Positions 26,140-50,642 of a DNA stretch of 64,000 bases are shown here, piece by piece (positions within the stretch are counted from its first letter, which is position 1; each line of letters begins with the position of its first letter). Both the position numbers and the translations under genes were made by a program. The DNA is from Miniphocaeibacter halophilus. GTDB taxonomy: Bacteria > Bacillota > Clostridia > Tissierellales > Peptoniphilaceae. A model generated the notes under the pieces. The model had not been told where the DNA came from, did not search any database, and worked only from the letters and a program-made list of their open reading frames with translations. The stretch covers positions 5,001 through 69,000 of the forward strand of contig NZ_CP066744.1 in assembly GCF_016458825.1 (NCBI RefSeq). Direction: 5' to 3'.

Positions 26140-27384
26140 TTATAAAATTCCGATATCTTTTCTATAATACCTTCCTTCAAAATTTATTCTATTAATATTT
26201 TCATAAACTTTGTTTCCTGCTTCTTCTAAGGTCTCTGCAAGGGCAGTTACTGAAAGGACCCTTCCTCCATTTGTTACTAGTTTTTCATTTTTTAGTTTTG
26301 TACCGTTATGAAATACTATTATGTTTTCATCTACCTTATCCAACCCAATTATTTCTTTGTTAATCTCGTATTTATCGGGATAGCCACCAGAACAAAGAAC
26401 AGTCGTTAAACAGTATTTCTCATCCCACTGTAAATCTTCATTAGATATTTCATTGTTCATGGTTTTTAATATAATATTAAGCAAATCAGATTTTAATCTC
26501 GGAAGAATAACTTCAGTTTCAGGATCTCCAAATCGGACATTAAATTCTAATACTTTCGCTCCTTCTTCTGTTATCATAAATCCTATAAATAAAACACCAT
26601 TATAGGCTAATTTTTCTTCCTCTAATGCATCTTGTATTTTTTTAGCAATATTATTTAAATCTTTTTTTGTATTTTCATCTAGAAATGGATTTGGAGATAT
26701 ACACCCTACACCACCTGTGTTTTCTCCTGTGTCCTTCTCACCTATTTTTTTATAATCCTTTGCAGGTTCTAAGGGTACAATATTATTTTTTGATACTAGA
26801 CATATTAAGGAAGCTTCAAATCCTTCTAAAAATTCTTCAATTACTATTTTATTTCCTTCTTCTCCAAAAACTTTATCTATGAAAATCTTTTTAAGATTCT
26901 TACTAGCTTCATCTTTGTTTTCACAAATAAATACTCCCTTTCCTTTACAAAGACCATCTGCCTTAATTACTAAGGGAAATTTAAAGTTTTCTAATCCCTT
27001 TATGGCACTATTATAATCTGTATAGGAAAAATATTTTGCAGTAGGAATATTGTTTCTCATTAAAAATTCCTTTGTAAATTCTTTACTGCCTTCTAGTTGG
27101 GCAGATTTTTTATTTGGTCCAAAGATTTTTAAGGAGTTTTTTTCAAATAAATCAACGATTCCTTCGCACAAAGGATTTTCAGGGCCTACTATTGTTAAGT
27201 CAATATTATTATTTTTTGCAAAGTTCAATATATCCAAATTGCTTTTTAAGCCAATGTTTTCAGCTATTGTGTTAATGCCACCATTGCCATTAACACAGAA
27301 AATTTTATTTACCAATTTACTTTGAGCAATTTTCCAAATAAGTGCATGTTCCCTTCCACCATTTCCTATTACTAAAATATCCAT
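26140..27384 (-). CDS. purD: phosphoribosylamine-glycine ligase
   Basis: 414 residues, a complete ATP-grasp enzyme. It opens with ILVIGNGGREHAL, has KADGLCKGKGV in the ATP-binding domain, EASLICLV, and the metal-binding FNVRFGDPETEVILPRL. It joins glycine to phosphoribosylamine, the product of PurF. It is the last gene of the pur operon, 1 base after purN. The usual purH between purN and purD is missing. Confidence 0.95.
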   Translation of the reverse strand: MDILVIGNGGREHALIWKIAQSKLVNKIFCVNGNGGINTIAENIGLKSNLDILNFAKNNNIDLTIVGPENPLCEGIVDLFEKNSLKIFGPNKKSAQLEGSKEFTKEFLMRNNIPTAKYFSYTDYNSAIKGLENFKFPLVIKADGLCKGKGVFICENKDEASKNLKKIFIDKVFGEEGNKIVIEEFLEGFEASLICLVSKNNIVPLEPAKDYKKIGEKDTGENTGGVGCISPNPFLDENTKKDLNNIAKKIQDALEEEKLAYNGVLFIGFMITEEGAKVLEFNVRFGDPETEVILPRLKSDLLNIILKTMNNEISNEDLQWDEKYCLTTVLCSGGYPDKYEINKEIIGLDKVDENIIVFHNGTKLKNEKLVTNGGRVLSVTALAETLEEAGNKVYENINRINFEGRYYRKDIGIL

Positions 27385-27385
27385 A

Positions 27386-28009
27386 CTATCTCCTTATTAG
27401 CACTTTCCTTCCGTTTATTTCAAGCCTTTTATCTTCTATTAGCCTAATTGTTTCTACTAATATTTTATGCTCAATATCTAAAACTCTTTTCTGTAATTCT
27501 TCTGCAGTTATTTCTTCTTCTATTTTCAAAGGCTCTTGTATAATAATCGGTCCAGTGTCCACACCTTCGTCTACAAAATGAGTTGTAGCTCCTGTTACTT
27601 TTACTCCATATTCTAAAACTTTTTCATGTACATTTATCCCATAAAATCCCTTGCCGCAAAAACTTGGAATTAAAGATGGATGAATATTAACTATTTTATT
27701 TTTGTAATATTTAATGATTTCCTCCGGTACTATTCCCAAGTAGCCAGCTAATACAATTAAATCAATTTTTTTATTTTTAAAAACTTCCAGTAATTCTTTT
27801 TCATATTCCTTTAAGGAGCTGTAATCCTTTTTAGACAAATACACTGCATCAATTCCATGCTTTTTTGCCCTTACTAATCCATAAGCTTTTTCCATATTGG
27901 AAATTACAATTTTAATTTCACTTTTTAATATATTTTTTTCTATAGCATCAATTATACTCTGTAAATTACTTCCACTTCCTGAAATCATTACAGCTATATT
28001 TAATGACAT
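27386..28009 (-). CDS. purN: phosphoribosylglycinamide formyltransferase
   Basis: 207 residues. Conserved blocks: VMISGSGSNLQSII, LAGYLGIVP, the catalytic NIHPSLIPSFCG, and GATTHFVDEGVDTGPII (His and Asp). It uses 10-formyl-THF, linking to the folate gene at 7441. It overlaps purM by 10 bases. Confidence 0.95.
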   Translation of the reverse strand: MSLNIAVMISGSGSNLQSIIDAIEKNILKSEIKIVISNMEKAYGLVRAKKHGIDAVYLSKKDYSSLKEYEKELLEVFKNKKIDLIVLAGYLGIVPEEIIKYYKNKIVNIHPSLIPSFCGKGFYGINVHEKVLEYGVKVTGATTHFVDEGVDTGPIIIQEPLKIEEEITAEELQKRVLDIEHKILVETIRLIEDKRLEINGRKVLIRR

Positions 28010-29034
28010 AGGATTACTCCTTCTTCTCCCTTTATAACTTCACCTATTTCATATACTTTTTCATCTATTTCTTTTAAATAATTTAGAACATCATCTTTTA
28101 TATCCTTATTAACAAAAAATACTATTCCAATGCCCATATTAAACGTTGAGTACATTTCCTTTGTATCTACATTTCCCCATTTTTGTAGTAGATTAAATAT
28201 TTCATGTTTTTCAATTTTTTTAGTATTAACCTTTGCAGTTAAGCCTTTAGGTAATGCTCGTGGAATATTCTCATATAAACCGCCACCTGTTATATGGGAT
28301 ATACCGTTTATTTTAAATTTTCTTACTAGGTCTAATAATGGCTTAGTATATATTCTTGTAGGTTTTAGTAATTCTTCACCTAAGGTTGATTCTAGTTCTT
28401 CTATATACATGTCCAATTTATAATTCATCTTTTCAAATATAATTTTTCTTACTATTGAATATCCATTACTATGTACACCTGTAGAAGGTAAGGCTAAAAT
28501 AACATCTCCTTCTTTTATATCTTTTTTACCATCAATTATCTTATTTTTATCGACTATTCCTACAGCAAAACCAGCTAAGTCATATTCATCTTCTTCGTAT
28601 AGGCCCGGCATTTCCGCTGTTTCTCCTCCAACTAGGGCACAGCCAGCTTTTACGCACCCATTTGAAACACCTTCAACTATTGAATACATTTTTTCCGGTA
28701 TTAATTTTCCAGTTGAAATATAGTCTAGGAAAAAAATAGGTTCAGCTCCTTGGCAAAGAATATCATTAACACACATGGCTACACAATCTTCACCTACTGT
28801 ATTATGTTTATCCATTTTAAATGCCAACATTAATTTTGTTCCAACACCATCAGTTCCTGAAACTAACACCGGTTCTTCATACTTGTCCTTATTTATGCCG
28901 AACAAACCGGAAAATCCACCTAAATCAGAAATTACTCCTTCTCTAAAGGTTTTTTTAATTAGAGGTTTTATTAATTGTACTTCCTTATATCCCGCTTCTT
29001 TATCTACGCCTGAATCCTTATATGTTAAATTCAT
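28000..29034 (-). CDS. purM: phosphoribosylformylglycinamidine cyclo-ligase (AIR synthetase)
   Basis: About 344 residues. It has LVSGTDGVGTKLMLAF, CVNDILCQGAEPIFFLDY, GGETAEMPG and HITGGGLYENIPR. ATG 29034 was chosen for its AAGGAG site; the longer ORF begins inside purF. PurM is structurally related to the synthetase half of PurL and acts on its product FGAM. Confidence 0.94.
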   Translation of the reverse strand: MNLTYKDSGVDKEAGYKEVQLIKPLIKKTFREGVISDLGGFSGLFGINKDKYEEPVLVSGTDGVGTKLMLAFKMDKHNTVGEDCVAMCVNDILCQGAEPIFFLDYISTGKLIPEKMYSIVEGVSNGCVKAGCALVGGETAEMPGLYEEDEYDLAGFAVGIVDKNKIIDGKKDIKEGDVILALPSTGVHSNGYSIVRKIIFEKMNYKLDMYIEELESTLGEELLKPTRIYTKPLLDLVRKFKINGISHITGGGLYENIPRALPKGLTAKVNTKKIEKHEIFNLLQKWGNVDTKEMYSTFNMGIGIVFFVNKDIKDDVLNYLKEIDEKVYEIGEVIKGEEGVILCH

Positions 29035-29044
29035 AACTTTCTCC

Positions 29045-30286
29045 TTATGCAAAATATTTTTCATAATATCCTTTGTTGCCACAACAATCTCTAAGCCCTT
29101 GTAAGCTTAAATGGTATAGGGAGTCAGCTTGTATTTCCCTTGCCACTTCTTCAAAGCTCTTACTTCGACTTATAAGATTTTCTTCACTAGGAATATCTAT
29201 ACTTAAATCATCTTTATTGACTACAGGTGGAGATGCAATTCTTAAATGAACTTTTCTAGCTCCTGAATCCTTTAACATCTTAATCAACCTTTTTGTAGTT
29301 GTACCTCTAACTATGGAATCATCTACTAAAATAATATCTTTATCCTTTACATTTTCAATTATTGGATTAAGTTTAATATTTACACTTTTCTCTCTATTTT
29401 CCTGATCTGACTCAATAAATGTTCTTCCTATATACCTATTTTTTACTATTCCTTCCATGTATGGAATTTTTGAAGCGTAAGAATAGCCTAATGCTGCAAT
29501 TATTCCGGAATCCGGAGCACCAACTACAATATCGGCTTCTGTTTTATTTTCCTCATATAATACCTGTCCAGAATTATATCTTGCTCTATATACACTTACA
29601 CCATCAATATAGCTATCAGGTCTTGCTATATAAACCATTTCGAATAGACAGAGTTTGCTTTCTTCATTTGAATATTTTATAAACTCATAATCTGAATTTG
29701 TTCCAATGAATATTTCACCAGGCTCTAAATCCTTTAATAATTTATACCCAATTGAGTCTATTGCGCAGGTTTCAGATGATATAACATAGCCCGAATCATT
29801 AACTCCTACAGACAATGGCTTAACACCATAGGGGTCCCTTATTGCTACAATTTTTTCATTATCCATATATCCAAGACTAAAAGCCCCTTTTATATTGGAC
29901 AAATATTTCTTTAACTCTTCTTTATTACCTTGAATTTTCTCCCTTAGTTTTTCATAGGATATATTTGAAATAATTTTGCCATCTATTACCATTAAGGAAG
30001 ACATTCCATTTTTCTTTGATATAAAGGGCATAGGATTTTCCTCTTCAAATCTAAAGGCATATTTTACATATCCCATAGCTTTATTTCCATTGAATTTTCT
30101 TAATACTTTATTACTAAAATTCTCCCCAACCAAACCTTCACCAACTAGATAATTAATTCTATCATTATCAATAGTTGCAATTCCTACTTCAGCCTGGCCT
30201 CTATGTTGAACACCATAAAGACCATATTGTAAATACCTTATAGCTTCAATATCCTCATTGTTGAAAAACCCGAATATACCACTCAT
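29045..30286 (-). CDS. purF: amidophosphoribosyltransferase with degenerate glutaminase domain
   Basis: 413 residues, shorter than the roughly 470 of B. subtilis PurF. The phosphoribosyltransferase half is well preserved: ARPDSYIDG, GAPDSGIIAALGY, KNRYIGRTFI and the PRPP loop VDDSIVRGTT (321-330). The N-terminal Ntn-hydrolase half aligns but is stripped. It begins MSGIFG instead of MCGIFG, so the nucleophile Cys is Ser. GHVRYxTAG is GYVKYAFRF (72-80), HNGN is IDGK (101-104), and the roughly 35-residue region carrying SSDTE is missing. Most Fe-S ligand cysteines (the PCxxGID and CLACF sites) are gone. Inference: it makes phosphoribosylamine from free ammonia. Confidence 0.9.
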   Translation of the reverse strand: MSGIFGFFNNEDIEAIRYLQYGLYGVQHRGQAEVGIATIDNDRINYLVGEGLVGENFSNKVLRKFNGNKAMGYVKYAFRFEEENPMPFISKKNGMSSLMVIDGKIISNISYEKLREKIQGNKEELKKYLSNIKGAFSLGYMDNEKIVAIRDPYGVKPLSVGVNDSGYVISSETCAIDSIGYKLLKDLEPGEIFIGTNSDYEFIKYSNEESKLCLFEMVYIARPDSYIDGVSVYRARYNSGQVLYEENKTEADIVVGAPDSGIIAALGYSYASKIPYMEGIVKNRYIGRTFIESDQENREKSVNIKLNPIIENVKDKDIILVDDSIVRGTTTKRLIKMLKDSGARKVHLRIASPPVVNKDDLSIDIPSEENLISRSKSFEEVAREIQADSLYHLSLQGLRDCCGNKGYYEKYFA

Positions 30287-30293
30287 AATACAC

Positions 30294-30773
30294 CTATATT
30301 TCCAAATCCTTATTAATTTCTATAATATCGGCCCTGCTTTTTTCCCTCAGTTGTTTTATATTATTCATTATTTTTTTATTATTTAAAGCTAGTATTTTAC
30401 CGGCTAATATTGCTGCATTTTCTCCTCCATCTATTGCCACTGTAGCAACAGGTACTCCTTTTGGCATTTGTACAGTAGATAGTAGGGCGTCTAAACCTTC
30501 CAGTGCTTTTGATTTTACCGGAATACCTATAACAGGTATATCAACTAAAGCAGCTGTAACTCCTGCCAAATGAGCAGACATACCTGCAATTGCAATTATT
30601 ACCCCAATTTCTTCTTCCTCTACTTTTTTACAAAAATCCATTAGTAGGTCTAATGACCTGTGAGCTGAAATAACATTAACTGAGTTTTCTATTTCCAATT
30701 CATCTAATTTGTTTTTTACTTTTTTTGCTATTTCCCTATCTGATATACTTCCCATAATTACAGCTACCTTCAT
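30294..30773 (-). CDS. purE: N5-carboxyaminoimidazole ribonucleotide mutase
   Basis: 159 residues. VIMGSISDREIA, ISAHRS, AIAGMSAHLAGV and LLSTVQMPKGVPVATVAI are class I-like PurE features. Class I normally works with PurK, which is not in this operon. It may lie elsewhere, or the enzyme may use AIR and CO2 directly. The position between purL and purF is normal for the group. Confidence 0.93.
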   Translation of the reverse strand: MKVAVIMGSISDREIAKKVKNKLDELEIENSVNVISAHRSLDLLMDFCKKVEEEEIGVIIAIAGMSAHLAGVTAALVDIPVIGIPVKSKALEGLDALLSTVQMPKGVPVATVAIDGGENAAILAGKILALNNKKIMNNIKQLREKSRADIIEINKDLEI

Positions 30774-30782
30774 TGTTTCCTC

Positions 30783-33700
30783 CTATTTGTTAAAGTAATT
30801 AACTCCAGATTCTATTATTTTTGAATATCCTTTTATGTTGTTGTTTATAAATAAACCTTCTTCTATTCTGTCTATTAATCCTATTAATCCTATTACTCTA
30901 CCACATGGGCTAATAAGTCCATCAATAGATAATTCAGAATTAAATAAATTTTTACTAGTAACTGTTATAATTTGATTGTTTTTAATTAAATTTTCCCTTG
31001 CATTTCCTAGTAGGATTCTACCTTGTCTAGTAGCTACCGGTGCTGTATAAACATCGCCTACTTCCATCTTGGACAACCAAGGAGAATTTTTAGAAACAAG
31101 CTTAACATCTGCTAAATCGGAAATAAAACCATCAAATTCATTTTTAGCAATTTCTATACTACTTCCCTTTTTTATTTCTCCAAATTCTATTAGTCCGGAA
31201 TTTACAAGGCCTGTAAAGCCTGCACCTAAACCTATTACTAATCCTTTTCTATTTTTAATTAAATCCTCTACTGCTTCTTTTATAGATTCTTGGGAAAGTA
31301 TTATTTCTATTAATTTTCCATTGCTTTCTAATTCTTCACCCATTAAAGCACCATTTGCAAAGGCTAAGATGTTATTTCTTTCAATTGCCTCTCTAAGTTC
31401 AATAAAAGATTTTTCAACCAGTTCTTTTGTTAAGGTATTAAATACAATTTTTTCAACCTTAGCTCCGGCTTTTAAAAATGTTCTTTCTAAATCATATTCT
31501 CCATTTGTTCCCGGTAAAACAGGAATTAATACCTTAGCTTCTTTTTCAACAGCTTCTTCAAATTTATTTATCTTGTAATTTAAATCTAATTTTTCCCTAT
31601 CTTCTTTTGCTTCTTCTAATGGATATATATCATTTAAAACCTTAAGGCTTTCTTCTTTTAAAATATCGATTAAAATTTTCTCATTATTAATATTAATAAG
31701 GGAACTGTTGTTAGTATGTCCTATTACTTCACCTATTTTTCCTATAGTAGCCACATTGCTATTATCTACTTCAATAATTATTGAGCCAAATAAATTTTTA
31801 AATAATTTATCTTTAATATTATCTTCAATTTCAATTCCAATATTATTTCCCATAGCCATTTCTACAAGGGCTTTACCAATTCCTCCTGAGCTTATTGTAG
31901 ATGCAGAAAGAATATGACCCTTATTTACAAGTTCCTTTATTTCTTCATATTTTTCTTTTAAAATTTCAATATTCAAAAGTTCATTTTCAAGTAGAGGGAT
32001 TTCAACTAAAATAATTGTAGAATTTTCAGATTTTAATTCTCTACTTACTATATTGTTTACGTCTTCCTTTGTAACAGCAAAAGAAATTAATGTTGGAGGT
32101 ACAGTAATATCTTCATAAGTACCACTCATACTATCTTTACCGCCTATAGCAGGTATATTTAGGTCTTTCATAGCCTTGTAGGCCCCTAGTAAAGAACTAA
32201 CAGGTTTACTCCATTTGTCAGGATTTTTATCCAATCTTTCAAAAAACTCTTGAAAACTCAATCTTGCCTTTTTGTAGTCACCACCTAAAGCAACTACTTT
32301 CGCCAAGGATTCAATTACAGCATAGTATCCACCATGAAATTGGCTTTTTTCTGCTAAATATGGGTCGTAGCCATAGGTCATAATTGAACAAGAAGTCGTA
32401 TTTTTATTTAATACCGGAAATTTTGCAACCATTCCTTCTTGACTAGTAATTTTGTTCTTTCCACCTAATTGAGAAAGTACAGTTCCTTTTCCAATACTAT
32501 TGTCAAAGTTTTTAATTAGGCCTTTTTGAGAAGCATACCTAATATCAGTTACAATTTTTTTAATATTATCTTCAATATTTGATTTCTCATCTATATTATT
32601 ATTAAACAAATAGTCTATTTCTTTTGGACTATTTATATTTATATCGACTTGTTTTCTTGCACCATTGCTATCTAAAAATTCCCTTGATAGATTTATTATT
32701 TCCTTTCCTCTCCAGATCATTTTCATTCTTGGTTCTTCAAAAACTTCTGCAACAATTGTAGCTTCAATATTTTCTTTTTCTGCCAAATCTAAAAATTCAT
32801 CAATATCCTTTTTTTCTATAACAACAGCCATTCTTTCCTGAGATTCAGATAAGGCTATTTCCCCTCCATGTAATCCCTTGTATTTTAATGGAACAGAATC
32901 TAAATCTATAACTAATCCATTGGCTAATTCTCCAATTGCTACTGCAACTCCACCAGCTCCAAAGTCATTACATTTTTTTATTAATCTTGTTGCCTTTTCA
33001 TCTCTAAATAACCTCATAATATTTCTTTCCGCTAGAGGATTTCCCTTTTGGACTTCTGCACCAGCTGTTTCTAAAGAACTTTTATCCTGAACATTAGAAG
33101 AGCCAACTGCCGCTCCTAAACCATCTCTACCGGTTCTAGCACCTAAAAGTACAATTAAGTCCGTTGGATTTGGATTTTCCCTTCTAACCCATTTTTTTGG
33201 TACTCCTGCAACTAAAGCGCCTAGTTCCATTCTTTTAGCTTCGTAGCCATCATGGTATATTTCCTTTACTAGGCCTCCTGCTAATCCTATTTGATTACCA
33301 TAATCACTGTAGCCTTCCATTGCAGACTGACAGATTTTTCTTTGTGGTAATTTTCCTTCCAAGGTGTTTTCAAGTTTTGTCCTAGGATCTTTAGCACCGG
33401 TTATTCTCATTGCTTGATGTACAAAGGCCCTTGATGAAAGAGGATCTCTTATTCCACCACCAATACATGTATGTGCTCCACCATAAGGCTCAATTTCTGT
33501 AGGATGATTATGGGTTTCGTTTTTAAATAGTAGTAGCCAATCTTCCATTCTACCTTCAACATCAACCTTTACTTCAACACTACAAGCATTTATTTCATCC
33601 GAAACTTCCATGTCGTCTAATAAACCTAGTTTTCTTAATTCCTTCATATTAATTGTTGCCATATCCATTAAAGTAACAGGTTTACTATTATTATGGGCAA

Positions 33701-33791
33701 ATTTTCTAGATTCTAAATATTCTTTAAATACTTTTTCTAAAGTCTCCTTATATTTACCTTCTTTAAAATTAACATTGTTAATTTCCGTCAA
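30783..33791 (-). CDS. purL: FGAM synthetase, main part (frameshifted from N-terminal part; degenerate glutaminase domain)
   Basis: 1002 residues read from a TTG that is probably not a real start. It continues the single-chain clostridial PurL. The synthetase core is strong: ETHNHPTEIEPYGGAHTC, GGIRDPLSSRAFVHQAMR, DFGAGGVAVAIGELA and IGGKDSMSGT. The C-terminal region (about 740-1002) keeps the fold (LIPVLPGTNGEYD, SPWLSKMEVGDV, SPCGRVIG) but not the chemistry. GICNGFQ is GLGAGFT (854-860, Cys to Gly856). GKMAHSER is GLIGLIDR (His to Leu972, Glu to Asp974). The PGGFSxGDE loop is FANGALMGEE, and SHGEGRF is ATRQGRI. Ammonia rather than glutamine is the inferred nitrogen donor. Confidence 0.9.
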   Translation of the reverse strand: MTEINNVNFKEGKYKETLEKVFKEYLESRKFAHNNSKPVTLMDMATINMKELRKLGLLDDMEVSDEINACSVEVKVDVEGRMEDWLLLFKNETHNHPTEIEPYGGAHTCIGGGIRDPLSSRAFVHQAMRITGAKDPRTKLENTLEGKLPQRKICQSAMEGYSDYGNQIGLAGGLVKEIYHDGYEAKRMELGALVAGVPKKWVRRENPNPTDLIVLLGARTGRDGLGAAVGSSNVQDKSSLETAGAEVQKGNPLAERNIMRLFRDEKATRLIKKCNDFGAGGVAVAIGELANGLVIDLDSVPLKYKGLHGGEIALSESQERMAVVIEKKDIDEFLDLAEKENIEATIVAEVFEEPRMKMIWRGKEIINLSREFLDSNGARKQVDININSPKEIDYLFNNNIDEKSNIEDNIKKIVTDIRYASQKGLIKNFDNSIGKGTVLSQLGGKNKITSQEGMVAKFPVLNKNTTSCSIMTYGYDPYLAEKSQFHGGYYAVIESLAKVVALGGDYKKARLSFQEFFERLDKNPDKWSKPVSSLLGAYKAMKDLNIPAIGGKDSMSGTYEDITVPPTLISFAVTKEDVNNIVSRELKSENSTIILVEIPLLENELLNIEILKEKYEEIKELVNKGHILSASTISSGGIGKALVEMAMGNNIGIEIEDNIKDKLFKNLFGSIIIEVDNSNVATIGKIGEVIGHTNNSSLININNEKILIDILKEESLKVLNDIYPLEEAKEDREKLDLNYKINKFEEAVEKEAKVLIPVLPGTNGEYDLERTFLKAGAKVEKIVFNTLTKELVEKSFIELREAIERNNILAFANGALMGEELESNGKLIEIILSQESIKEAVEDLIKNRKGLVIGLGAGFTGLVNSGLIEFGEIKKGSSIEIAKNEFDGFISDLADVKLVSKNSPWLSKMEVGDVYTAPVATRQGRILLGNARENLIKNNQIITVTSKNLFNSELSIDGLISPCGRVIGLIGLIDRIEEGLFINNNIKGYSKIIESGVNYFNK

Positions 33792-34467
33792 AAAAAGTTG
33801 TATGTCTACAATGGTCTGACCAATATGTATCTATTGTCTTTAGTTCCCAAATATTAGGATTTCTATTTTCTTCCCTAAAATAATTTTGTACAAATTTTAT
33901 ATCATCTAGATCCATGGCAAAGTTTGAAATTAAGTTTTCCAATTCTCTTTCATTCATATTAATAAAATTATCTACTTTTTCTATCTTATCTTCACAGTCT
34001 TCAAATATAAAAACAGAAGAATCATCTAAAGGAATTTCCTTACTATCCACATTGTTTATATAATATTTCTTTATTTTCTCTAAATCAGAATTGTCTATTC
34101 CTTTTAAAATTATAACTTTTGAATGTTTTATATTAATATTGTCATAACTAAAGAATTTTTTAATATATTCATTTGTCATATCTTCTCTTTGGTTGTATTG
34201 TCCATCCTTACCTTGTACTCTAAAAGCTTTTTCATCATCTTCTAACTGAATTTTATTTTCATAAAAAATATCTGTATTTTCATTTTTGAATAATTTGTTT
34301 TCTAAATCCTCATATTCCTCTTTAGTAAAATTAGAAATATTAAAAGCGTTTATAACCCTAACTGATTGTAGGTTTCCTATACTTAGAAAATTTTTAAATT
34401 CTCTGTATAGTTTACAATTTTCTGAATTAAATTCCTTTCTTTTTTCAATGAAGATAGTTTTATTCAT
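33778..34467 (-). CDS. purL: FGAM synthetase, N-terminal part (purL 5' fragment)
   Basis: 229 residues forming the PurS-like and linker region of large PurL. It ends in the conserved ELKTIDTYWSDHCRHTTF, then goes out of frame (FDGN, stop). The next ORF resumes exactly where homologues continue (LTEINNVNF). Removing one T from a 7-T run (33796-33790, minus strand) joins them into a protein of about 1230 residues, the usual size. AGGAGG precedes the ATG, and a PRPP-type riboswitch lies just upstream. Confidence 0.88.
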   Translation of the reverse strand: MNKTIFIEKRKEFNSENCKLYREFKNFLSIGNLQSVRVINAFNISNFTKEEYEDLENKLFKNENTDIFYENKIQLEDDEKAFRVQGKDGQYNQREDMTNEYIKKFFSYDNINIKHSKVIILKGIDNSDLEKIKKYYINNVDSKEIPLDDSSVFIFEDCEDKIEKVDNFINMNERELENLISNFAMDLDDIKFVQNYFREENRNPNIWELKTIDTYWSDHCRHTTFFDGN

Positions 34468-34627: not shown

Positions 34628-35305
34628 TTAAAAAAGATATTTTCCCAATTCCATTGGGTCTATATATTCATCGCCTTTATAAACTCTCATGTTTCCACCA
34701 GATAACTCATCAATTAAAACTATTTCACCATTATCAAGTTTACCAAATTCCAGTTTAATATCATAAAGGGTTAAGCCCTTTTTCTCTAACTCTCTTTTAA
34801 TAATTCCGGATATATCTTTAGTAAGACCAACAATCATATTATATTCTTCATTATCTAGTATATTTAAAATTGATAATGCATCTTTAGTTATTAGTGGATC
34901 GTTTCTTTCATCATCTTTTAAAGTAATTTCTGTATAGGCTGGTAATTTCATTCCTTCTTTTGCATATAAGCCATATCTTCTAATAAAACTTCCTACAGCC
35001 TTGTATCTACATATAACCTCTACACCTTTACCAAATACCTTGGCCTGTTTAACAACCATTGTATTATTTTCAATATCTGCTGAAATATAATGGGTAGAAA
35101 TATTATTTTCCTTTAATTTTTCAAAAAAGAATTTAGACATCTTTAGATTTTCTTTTCCTACACCTTCAATAGACAATCCTACTTGATTAGCTCCTGGATC
35201 AAAATGACCATCTACTCCTGTAACATCATCTTTAAATTGTAAGACTAAATTGCCATCTTCTCCTTTATAAATATCTTTAGTTTTTCCTTTATATAATAAT
35301 TCCAT
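34628..35305 (-). CDS. purC: phosphoribosylaminoimidazole-succinocarboxamide synthase
   Basis: 225 residues. It opens LLYKGKTKDIYKGE and has GADQVGLSIEG-like sequence, VICRYKAVGSFIRRYG and KLEFGKL. SAICAR synthase joins aspartate to CAIR. It is the first gene after the leading PRPP-type riboswitch and is separated from purL by a second copy of that switch. Confidence 0.95.
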   Translation of the reverse strand: MELLYKGKTKDIYKGEDGNLVLQFKDDVTGVDGHFDPGANQVGLSIEGVGKENLKMSKFFFEKLKENNISTHYISADIENNTMVVKQAKVFGKGVEVICRYKAVGSFIRRYGLYAKEGMKLPAYTEITLKDDERNDPLITKDALSILNILDNEEYNMIVGLTKDISGIIKRELEKKGLTLYDIKLEFGKLDNGEIVLIDELSGGNMRVYKGDEYIDPMELGKYLF

Positions 35306-39361: not shown

Positions 39362-39392
39362 TAAACTTTCACCTCCACTACGGCTACACATA

Positions 39393-39500
39393 AAAAAATC
39401 TTTCCACCAAAAGGCAGAAAGATATTATATTTATCTTATCCACCTCGGTAGGATATTTAAATCTTTCGATACCTACGGTCTTTGGTAGCCAACTATTTAA
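39393..39500 (-). promoter_or_regulatory. ribosomal protein L10 leader with attenuator
   Basis: The transcript contains ACCGUAGGUAUCGAAAG and AUAUCCUACCGAGGUGG, matching the conserved L10-binding leader. An attenuator hairpin follows (ATCTTTC/GAAAGAT, then seven Ts) before rplJ. Confidence 0.85.
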
Positions 39501-39511
39501 TTAACATAATA

Positions 39512-49150: not shown

Positions 49151-49172
49151 ACCCATAAAAATGGGTTTATTT
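49145..49172. repeat. left target-site duplication (terminator hairpin)
   Basis: A 28-bp palindromic terminator (AAATAAACCC, loop, GGGTTTATTT) is repeated exactly at 50701-50728 on the other side of the IS. It contains the stop codon of the upstream plus-strand gene and the transposase stop codon. Confidence 0.85.
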
Positions 49173-50642
49173 CAGATTGAAGACAAAAGGCATTTTAGAA
49201 TTTATCAATAATCTAAAATGCCTTTTTAAAATTCTGAAATTTGAAATATTTTTCAAATCTTCAAATAAAACATGTAATTCGGAAGAATTCTTATACCTTT
49301 TCCATATGATTTTTGCCAACTTCTTTAAATTCATGCACCCAAATAAGAGGTATAGTTCATTTTTAACTCTTTCTAAACCCCTATGTAATGTGTATCGCAT
49401 CCCATGTAATTCTTTTGCATCAGCGAAAACTCTCTCTATTGTTTCTTTCCTTCTTCCATATTTTTCTTTAAATCCTTTAGTATGTCTAATATCTTCGCAT
49501 TTTTCTATGTATTCTTCCCAGATATGACGAGTTACTACTTTTTGATTATTCTTACTTTCTGTACAATTTTTGACATATTTACAGTTTTTACAATCGTTAG
49601 GATTACTTTTATATTCTTGATATCCATTTCTATTGGTTGTACTATATTTTAATATTTTGTTATTTGGACATATATAACAATCATAATATTCATCATAAAC
49701 ATATTCATATTTTTTATAGAACCCTTTTTTTGTCATTGGTCTTTTATATGGTAATAATGGTATTTTATCATTATCAAGTATTTGTTTTGCTATTGCCGGT
49801 GTTTTATATCCTGCATCAATTGCTATGTATTTATTACTTTTATATTTATTCTTTATTCTCTCATATAATATAGGAAATACTGTTGAATCATGTTTATTTC
49901 CTGAGGTTACTTCAAAATCAAGTATTATTCCATAATCATTACACGCTGTATTTGATAAATATGCAAATACTTTTTTATGCTCTCCTTTATGAAATATTCC
50001 ACAATCTGGGTCATTTTTACTTACTGTTATTTCTTTTGTTTTGATTTCTTCGTTTTTTTTTAATGGTTTTTTATTATGATTTTTTCTATCTTCATTTATT
50101 TCTTTTTCTAATATGTCTTGGTAATATTTAACAGATTCTTCTACTTCTATGGTTTCTTTATTATGTATATTTGCATTTGCCTTTATATGAGTTCCATCTA
50201 TGTATATATTTTCTTCTGTAAGTAATCCACATTTAGCTATTTCATTTAAAATTCTGAAAAATATTTGTTCAAAAATATCTGTTCCTTTAAATCGTCTTTG
50301 ATAATTTTTACTAAAGGTTGAGAAATGTGGTATTTTCTCAGTTAATCCATATCCTAAGTACCATCTATATGCTGCATTAACTTCTATTTCTTTTATTGTT
50401 TGTCGCATAGACCTAATTCCAAATGTATATTGGATAATATTTAATTTTATTAAAACAACAGGATCTATACTTTCGGCTCCTGTTTTAGAATAAAGATCTT
50501 TTACTAAATCGTAGATAAAGCTTAAATCAATAACTTGATCCAGTTTTCTTACCAAATGATCTTGTGGAACTAATGAATCTAAACTTAATATCTCTATTTG
50601 TGTTTTACTTATCTTGTCTTTTTTACCCATCATTTTTATCAC
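49167..50642 (-). CDS. IS1182-family DDE transposase
   Basis: 491 residues, apparently intact. It has the N-terminal LDSLVPQDHLVRKLDQVIDL and a catalytic core with IDGTHIKAN, IAIDAGYKTPA and RKETIERVFADAKELHGMRY, the last supplying the Glu of the DDE triad. A Cys-rich CxxC segment (YDCYICPN, CKNCKYVKNC) lies between, as in IS1182 enzymes. The final Lys codon and stop lie just outside the element, in the duplicated target. Confidence 0.93.
   Translation of the reverse strand: MIKMMGKKDKISKTQIEILSLDSLVPQDHLVRKLDQVIDLSFIYDLVKDLYSKTGAESIDPVVLIKLNIIQYTFGIRSMRQTIKEIEVNAAYRWYLGYGLTEKIPHFSTFSKNYQRRFKGTDIFEQIFFRILNEIAKCGLLTEENIYIDGTHIKANANIHNKETIEVEESVKYYQDILEKEINEDRKNHNKKPLKKNEEIKTKEITVSKNDPDCGIFHKGEHKKVFAYLSNTACNDYGIILDFEVTSGNKHDSTVFPILYERIKNKYKSNKYIAIDAGYKTPAIAKQILDNDKIPLLPYKRPMTKKGFYKKYEYVYDEYYDCYICPNNKILKYSTTNRNGYQEYKSNPNDCKNCKYVKNCTESKNNQKVVTRHIWEEYIEKCEDIRHTKGFKEKYGRRKETIERVFADAKELHGMRYTLHRGLERVKNELYLLFGCMNLKKLAKIIWKRYKNSSELHVLFEDLKNISNFRILKRHFRLLINSKMPFVFNLK

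Follow-up and report, generated by a model that had tools for sequence, protein, structure and literature searches.

A retained PurL glutaminase domain predicted to be inactive, and probable ammonia-dependent purine synthesis, in Miniphocaeibacter halophilus and related anaerobes

The window, i.e., the whole stretch of Miniphocaeibacter halophilus DNA that was analysed (64,000 nucleotides), carries a cluster of purine synthesis genes on its reverse strand. A 1002-residue frame (30783-33791) is identified by the frame list and by a profile search as encoding PurL. This C-terminal piece alone scores 1197.8 bits against the curated TIGR01857 cut-off of 1057.05, which assigns it to the large PurLs, and its residues 752-983 match Pfam GATase_5 (E 6e-27). 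The N-terminal 229 residues, recognised by profile matches, lie in another frame (33778..34467) that overlaps the C-terminal one. The initial annotation passed over this split, and likewise over the altered glutaminase of the PurF encoded downstream (29045..30286). The same cluster contains purE (30294..30773), purM, purN and purD (26140..29082), and purC (34628..35305), as presumed from the look of their sequences. In the related genomes G002, G080 and G090, purH lies between purN and purD; it is absent from this place in the window (27384-27386) and in G001. PurL is N-terminally fused to PurD (GAR synthetase) at loci L043 and L047, as read by eye, and other family members have similar open frames of 1629-1675 residues, the genus of the window being without this fusion. 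Elsewhere in the window are found a ribosomal protein L10 leader RNA (39384-39503; Rfam RF00557) and a transposase-like gene (49167-50642), which we take to be of the IS1182 type.

The C-terminal part of PurL (30786..31535, reverse strand) is predicted, from the GATase_5 match, alignments, a structural model and a fold search, to be a pseudo-glutaminase with a class I glutamine amidotransferase (GATase) fold devoid of catalytic residues. The initial annotation had placed it within 30783-33016, an interval that includes the domain but is wider than it. When aligned with intact PurLs, GICNGF is replaced by GLGAGF, SHGEGR by VATRQGR, LGKMGHSER by IGLIGLIDR, and the oxyanion loop PGGFSAGDE by FANGALMGEE (31332..31361, counted by hand from the translation). 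The Cys-His-Glu triad of class I glutamine amidotransferases is absent, its positions being occupied by Gly856 in place of the nucleophile (codon at 31224..31226) and by Leu972 and Asp974 in place of the His and Glu of HSER (30870..30878; base positions also counted by hand). These residue numbers, as first given, are correct for the 1002-residue frame; counted in the stop-to-stop frame, with its 13 additional residues, they become 869, 985 and 987. The same substitutions, sought in relatives, are found nearly unchanged in the congeners G001 and G002, G002 having Glu at the place of Asp974. Since both congeners carry nearly this set of substitutions in unbroken genes, a sequence error is not the cause. 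The FGAM synthetase part (31536..33791, reverse strand) keeps its motifs ETHNHPTEIEP, SESQERM and GGKDSMSG.

The AlphaFold prediction for 13 dead PurL domains yields a GATase fold with a pLDDT of 88.3, and the solved structures nearest to the model are Thermotoga PurQ (3d54, chain 3d54_D) and Salmonella PurL. The dead domain is under purifying selection, with a dN/dS somewhat higher than in the synthetase portion. By a simple counting method, the ratio is 0.099 (0.07/0.70) against G001 and 0.215 (0.22/1.00) against G002, compared with 0.071 (0.058/0.82) and 0.161 (0.195/1.21), respectively, for the synthetase part, dS being high in the second pair. From these low ratios it follows that the domain is kept. 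The loss of triad and oxyanion loop, the confident predicted model and the purifying selection all support the original proposal of a glutaminase fold that has been retained but would be catalytically dead. In Salmonella PurL, according to the available part of the study, the synthetase and glutaminase domains are suggested to unfold together and to stabilise each other (PMC3815217), which would suit a scaffold role of the dead domain.

PurF is also altered in its Ntn glutaminase. Its start, MSGIFGF, differs from the MCG or processed ECG of active enzymes by a Ser for Cys1, and alignment reveals Lys for the Arg of GHVRYS and Asp for the Asn of HNGN (the NG motif). It reaches 299.6 on profile TIGR01134, below the cut-off of 350. 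The PRPP loop VDDSIVRGTT is intact, and the dN/dS of purF is 0.03-0.08 where dS is computable. A Cys situated upstream in the open frame (...RCIMSG...) was considered as an alternative nucleophile and rejected, as it is out of alignment with the true position and absent in G002. Work cited in the accessible text of PMC3261824 indicates that E. coli PurF with Cys1 replaced by Ala or Ser loses its glutamine activity and keeps its ammonia activity. The PurF-like proteins of G008, G016, G024, G036, G045 and G053 are very divergent, have SHLG in place of QHRG, and may be a different enzyme.

GMP synthetase (GuaA) has an open frame of 324 residues in the genome of the window (G000) and of 324-326 residues across the genus (3/3 genomes), starting just before the ATP loop; its glutaminase domain is absent in the genus and is not found within 15 kb around guaA. 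A PF00117 search of the whole of G000 returns nothing but PabA, broken into two pieces, and a pair of PuuD-like proteins, and a search for class II glutaminases only PurF and AsnB. The PuuD-like class I GATases are adjacent (G000:C1:709126-710446; L003 and L006), one of them with Ser for the nucleophile Cys (GVSRGCQ). The idea that glutaminases have been lost across the board was also considered; it is rejected because AsnB and PabA of G000 keep their Cys, as does the CTP synthase PyrG in seven of the eight PurL-dead relatives checked, that of the eighth not having been read. PyrG is found in neither G000 nor G002, and only as a fragment in G001. At the thresholds applied, glutamine synthetase has no match in G000-G002 (14/14 controls positive), GlmS has none over the cut-off in these three genomes (best E 6e-14, in G000), and the Amt ammonium transporter has none in G000, in which NagB is present. 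As judged from these genes, glutamine use appears to have been lost in purine synthesis and probably in hexosamine synthesis, not everywhere.

The survey was extended to 101 genomes, kin of that of the window and including it, 92 of which have a PurL match. PurL was scored in 88 of these, G025 (broken gene), G056 (cut before the domain), and G066 and G082 (small PurL) being left out. PurF was scored in 89 genomes and called altered when its Cys or NG-motif Asn was changed (G023, set by hand as intact, was later confirmed), and GuaA in 97, leaving out G028, G029, G049 and G060 and with G027 set by hand as dead. The PurL Cys is lost in 22/88 genomes (17 Gly, 3 Ser, 1 Asn, 1 Asp), PurF is altered in 45/89, the GuaA glutaminase is dead or missing in 28/97, and glutamine synthetase is not found in 38/101. 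By hand reading, GlmS is absent in 28 genomes, the partial matches of G010, G037 and G097 being counted as present.

The associations between these losses are strong without correction for kinship; with correction, that of PurL with PurF is consistent in direction but not significant. Counting both lost, first only, second only and neither, and using Fisher tests that ignore kinship, the PurL/PurF table is 21, 1, 24, 41, i.e., PurF is altered in 21/22 PurL-dead genomes versus 24/65 PurL-intact ones (p 8e-7). It becomes 21, 1, 18, 41 without the six divergent PurFs, and 21, 1, 20, 44 when PurF is judged by Cys alone. The PurL/GuaA table is 15, 4, 8, 57 (GuaA dead or missing in 15/19 versus 8/65; p 8e-8), and that of PurL and missing glutamine synthetase 16, 6, 16, 50 (16/22 versus 16/66; p 8e-5). 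PurF gives 28, 17, 3, 41 with missing glutamine synthetase (p 3e-8) and 17, 25, 6, 38 with GuaA (p 0.007). Kinship being likewise ignored, missing GlmS tracks missing glutamine synthetase (26/38 versus 2/63), and NagB is present in 26/28 genomes lacking GlmS versus 42/73 having it. In kinship-aware pairs drawn on the tree of the GuaA synthetase part, PurL and PurF agree in 3.8 of 7, disagree in 0.0 and show no difference in 3.2 (p not below 0.05); PurF and GuaA agree in 1.4 of 8 and disagree in 1.0, without direction or significance.

GuaA is found at several stages: approximately full-length with the Cys lost (G003, G039, G065, G081, G094), cut down to 131-149 residues ahead of the SGGVDS loop versus about 220-230 in intact proteins (G014, G061, G072, G098), or without the domain (18 genomes). 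There are exceptions to the pattern. The GuaA domain is lacking in 4/41 genomes with PurL and PurF intact (G068, G075, G084, G096), and in another of the 41, G027, it looks dead; G091 combines a PurL Cys changed to Ser with an intact PurF and a missing GuaA domain; and a glutamine synthetase match is kept in 6/22 PurL-dead genomes (G063, G081, G090, G091, G093, G094). PF13507 finds the PurL domain in 22/22 PurL-dead genomes, with partial profile coverage in G014 and G031. This retention, set against the discarding by GuaA of its own domain in the genus, together with the purifying selection, fits the structural role that had been put forward for the dead domain, which is thereby partly supported. 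What the initial annotation missed is the wider pattern: PurF is altered, GuaA is truncated, and neither glutamine synthetase nor full-length GlmS is found.

A scan with the 13 dead domains was used to name carriers, the best 80 of 125 relatives being taken as named loci. Among these best 80 of 125, the PurL Cys is lost in 68, 65 of which have Gly, a share biased by one of the two search patterns, which demanded that Gly. Carriers include Miniphocaeibacter massiliensis, Tissierella praeacuta, T. pigra, T. creatinophila, T. simiarum, Schnuerera sp. xch1, [Clostridium] ultunense, Neofamilia massiliensis and many metagenome-assembled genomes (MAGs), several series of which are presumably digester or termite-gut sets, although their titles do not say so. 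Still among the best 80 of 125, PurF is within reach in 40 of the 68 dead-PurL loci, altered in 33 and intact at both sites in 7; 29 of the 33 are without the Cys, and 4 keep it and differ only at the Asn, like the PurF of [C.] ultunense, which has Asp there. As far as the accessible text goes, [C.] ultunense lacks both glutamine synthetase and an ammonium transporter (PMC5924567), and neither "amidotransferase" nor "purine" occurs in that text. The part available of PMC12079837 names M. halophilus as a compared relative and tabulates isolates from high-ammonia biogas systems; the second of them, presumably M. halophilus, is from such a system and tolerates about 0.8 M ammonia. Digesters are not the source of every carrier, since Schnuerera sp. 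xch1 is reported from a thermal spring (PMC8638607).

The reading that we favour, with a probability of roughly 0.8, is that these ammonia-rich anaerobes synthesise purines with ammonia and keep the dead PurL domain as a scaffold. The PurL synthetase and PurF phosphoribosyltransferase sites, both intact, would take free NH3, whereas the glutaminase domains of the two enzymes, unable to hydrolyse glutamine, would be kept as structural parts of the proteins. GMP synthetase would be one step beyond, its glutaminase domain having been lost, and hexosamine nitrogen would probably also come from ammonia, through NagB working in reverse where no full-length GlmS is found. The likely setting would be a very high ambient ammonia concentration, at which NH3 diffuses in and glutamine synthetase becomes dispensable. 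Free ammonia is proposed as the donor because PurF is altered, GuaA is truncated, and no glutamine synthetase or full-length GlmS is found; ammonia as the actual donor, the scaffold role, the reverse direction of NagB and the habitat as cause are the parts that we infer from sequences. Purine salvage, which could render the pathway dispensable, would count against ammonia-dependent synthesis, as does the absence of purH from the cluster.

Dead purL could also have moved between lineages by gene transfer, the losses then being fewer than the genomes suggest; this is compatible with ammonia-dependent synthesis, and we consider it an even bet. In a quick PurL tree, from which the glutaminase domain and the fragment G061 were left out, 13 dead sequences from four GTDB families, including the genus of the window, form one group with a support of 100. 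Trees forcing the dead PurL of G090 together with that of its congener G077 (intact), or forcing the family of the window into one clade, are rejected (p-AU 1.2e-5 and p 9e-4, respectively). On the other side, eight dead PurLs lie outside this group (G003, G018, G028, G029, G030, G039, G060, G091), and the fewest state changes of PurL are 7 on the PurL tree and 11 on the GuaA tree. In addition, a PurF tree, made without the six divergent proteins and short pieces, does not reject G077 and G090 together (p 0.11), and all the trees are quick ones. Taken together, the rejected constraints and the change counts lead us to conclude that dead purL probably arose more than once and was also transferred between lineages.

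It seems unlikely, though it deserves consideration, that the dead PurL domain has gone beyond a scaffold and acquired a new regulatory or binding role, e.g., in sensing ammonia or nucleotides. The 13 dead domains hold conserved motifs of their own (T[NHY]GEY, GxG at the old nucleophile, and the R of IDR) under purifying selection, and Cys is replaced by Gly in 17 of the 22 genomes, on more than one branch. However, conservation of the domain does not exceed that of the synthetase part, the 65/68 Gly of the named loci are not independent evidence given the pattern used, and Gly is expected at the strained nucleophile elbow once Cys is no longer needed.

We regard it as improbable that purine synthesis is simply decaying in the strain of the window and that its genes are pseudogenes, in spite of the split purL and of the absence of purH from the cluster, which G001 shares. 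The purL frame is continuous in G001 and G002, the dN/dS is 0.07-0.22 for both parts of purL and 0.03-0.08 for purF, and the synthetase and PRPP motifs are intact. The frame shift coincides with a run of seven T (33790..33796, reverse strand), which has no counterpart at that site in G001 (the pattern being unmatched in G002). A second frameshift, perhaps at an A run, splits a pabA-pabB fusion (G000:C1:448570-449111; L005). A programmed frameshift in purL was rejected: because the congeners are unsplit, G001 is without the T run and a second gene is split, sequence error is the likelier cause, although not proven, and the purL split is probably such an error, as is likely that of pabA-pabB.

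Finally, a glutaminase feeding PurL and PurF in trans, be it PurQ or another amidotransferase, is very improbable even though genes for PabA, PuuD-like class I GATases and AsnB persist in the genome, since PF13507, which picks up separate PurQ-sized frames in G066 and G082, has a single place in G000 and in each of the 22 PurL-dead genomes, inside PurL, whose own domain still fills the position that such a partner would occupy.

The protein resembles the large FGAM synthases (TIGR01857; Salmonella PurL, PDB 1T3T) in domain order, synthetase motifs and glutaminase fold, and differs from them in lacking the glutaminase triad and oxyanion loop and in having its gene split in the assembly. Precedents for the favoured ammonia-dependent synthesis are described in the accessible parts of three studies. 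PurF' of Crenarchaeota is a PurF-like protein without an active-site feature, encoded near purine genes and proposed to be possibly ammonia-dependent, but each species there also has a normal PurF, whereas a single PurF is found here along with a dead PurL and a GuaA devoid of its GATase domain (PMC3261824). Ammonia-dependent NAD synthetase, a synthetase without a glutaminase domain, uses free ammonia and has a mosaic distribution ascribed to transfer and loss; it is, however, a single and biochemically tested enzyme with a nitrilase-type glutaminase (PMC3376133). Cys mutants of PfGMPS such as C89A make GMP when given NH4Cl, and the double mutant that also carries C113A is without glutamine-dependent activity, but these are laboratory mutants, unlike the natural absence of the domain in the GuaA of the window (PMC9312489). 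Among the matches listed from the open-licence PMC literature, no title or start of abstract mentions a dead PurL or PurF in these bacteria. Single-enzyme precedents are thus known (archaeal PurF', NAD synthetase), and a loss across the pathway is without report among the matches listed.

The standard teaching is that glutamine donates the nitrogen in purine synthesis. All our results could be combined, tentatively and with somewhat less than even confidence, as follows: lineages of ammonia-rich anaerobes would have exchanged glutamine for free ammonia in purine synthesis (PurF, PurL, GuaA) and in hexosamine synthesis (NagB for GlmS) through a stepwise decay of glutaminase domains, usually PurF first and PurL later, with GuaA passing from dead to trimmed to deleted; dead purL would have spread between families by transfer, and the change from Cys to Gly would have been selected to admit ammonia to the old channel. 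The natural series from intact to dead to deleted glutaminases shows when the rule of glutamine as donor may break, and it allows the non-catalytic functions of a glutaminase domain to be tested. Ready-made ammonia-dependent enzymes would result, and the pattern may allow organisms living at high ammonia to be recognised from their genomes, which would be useful for biogas microbiology.
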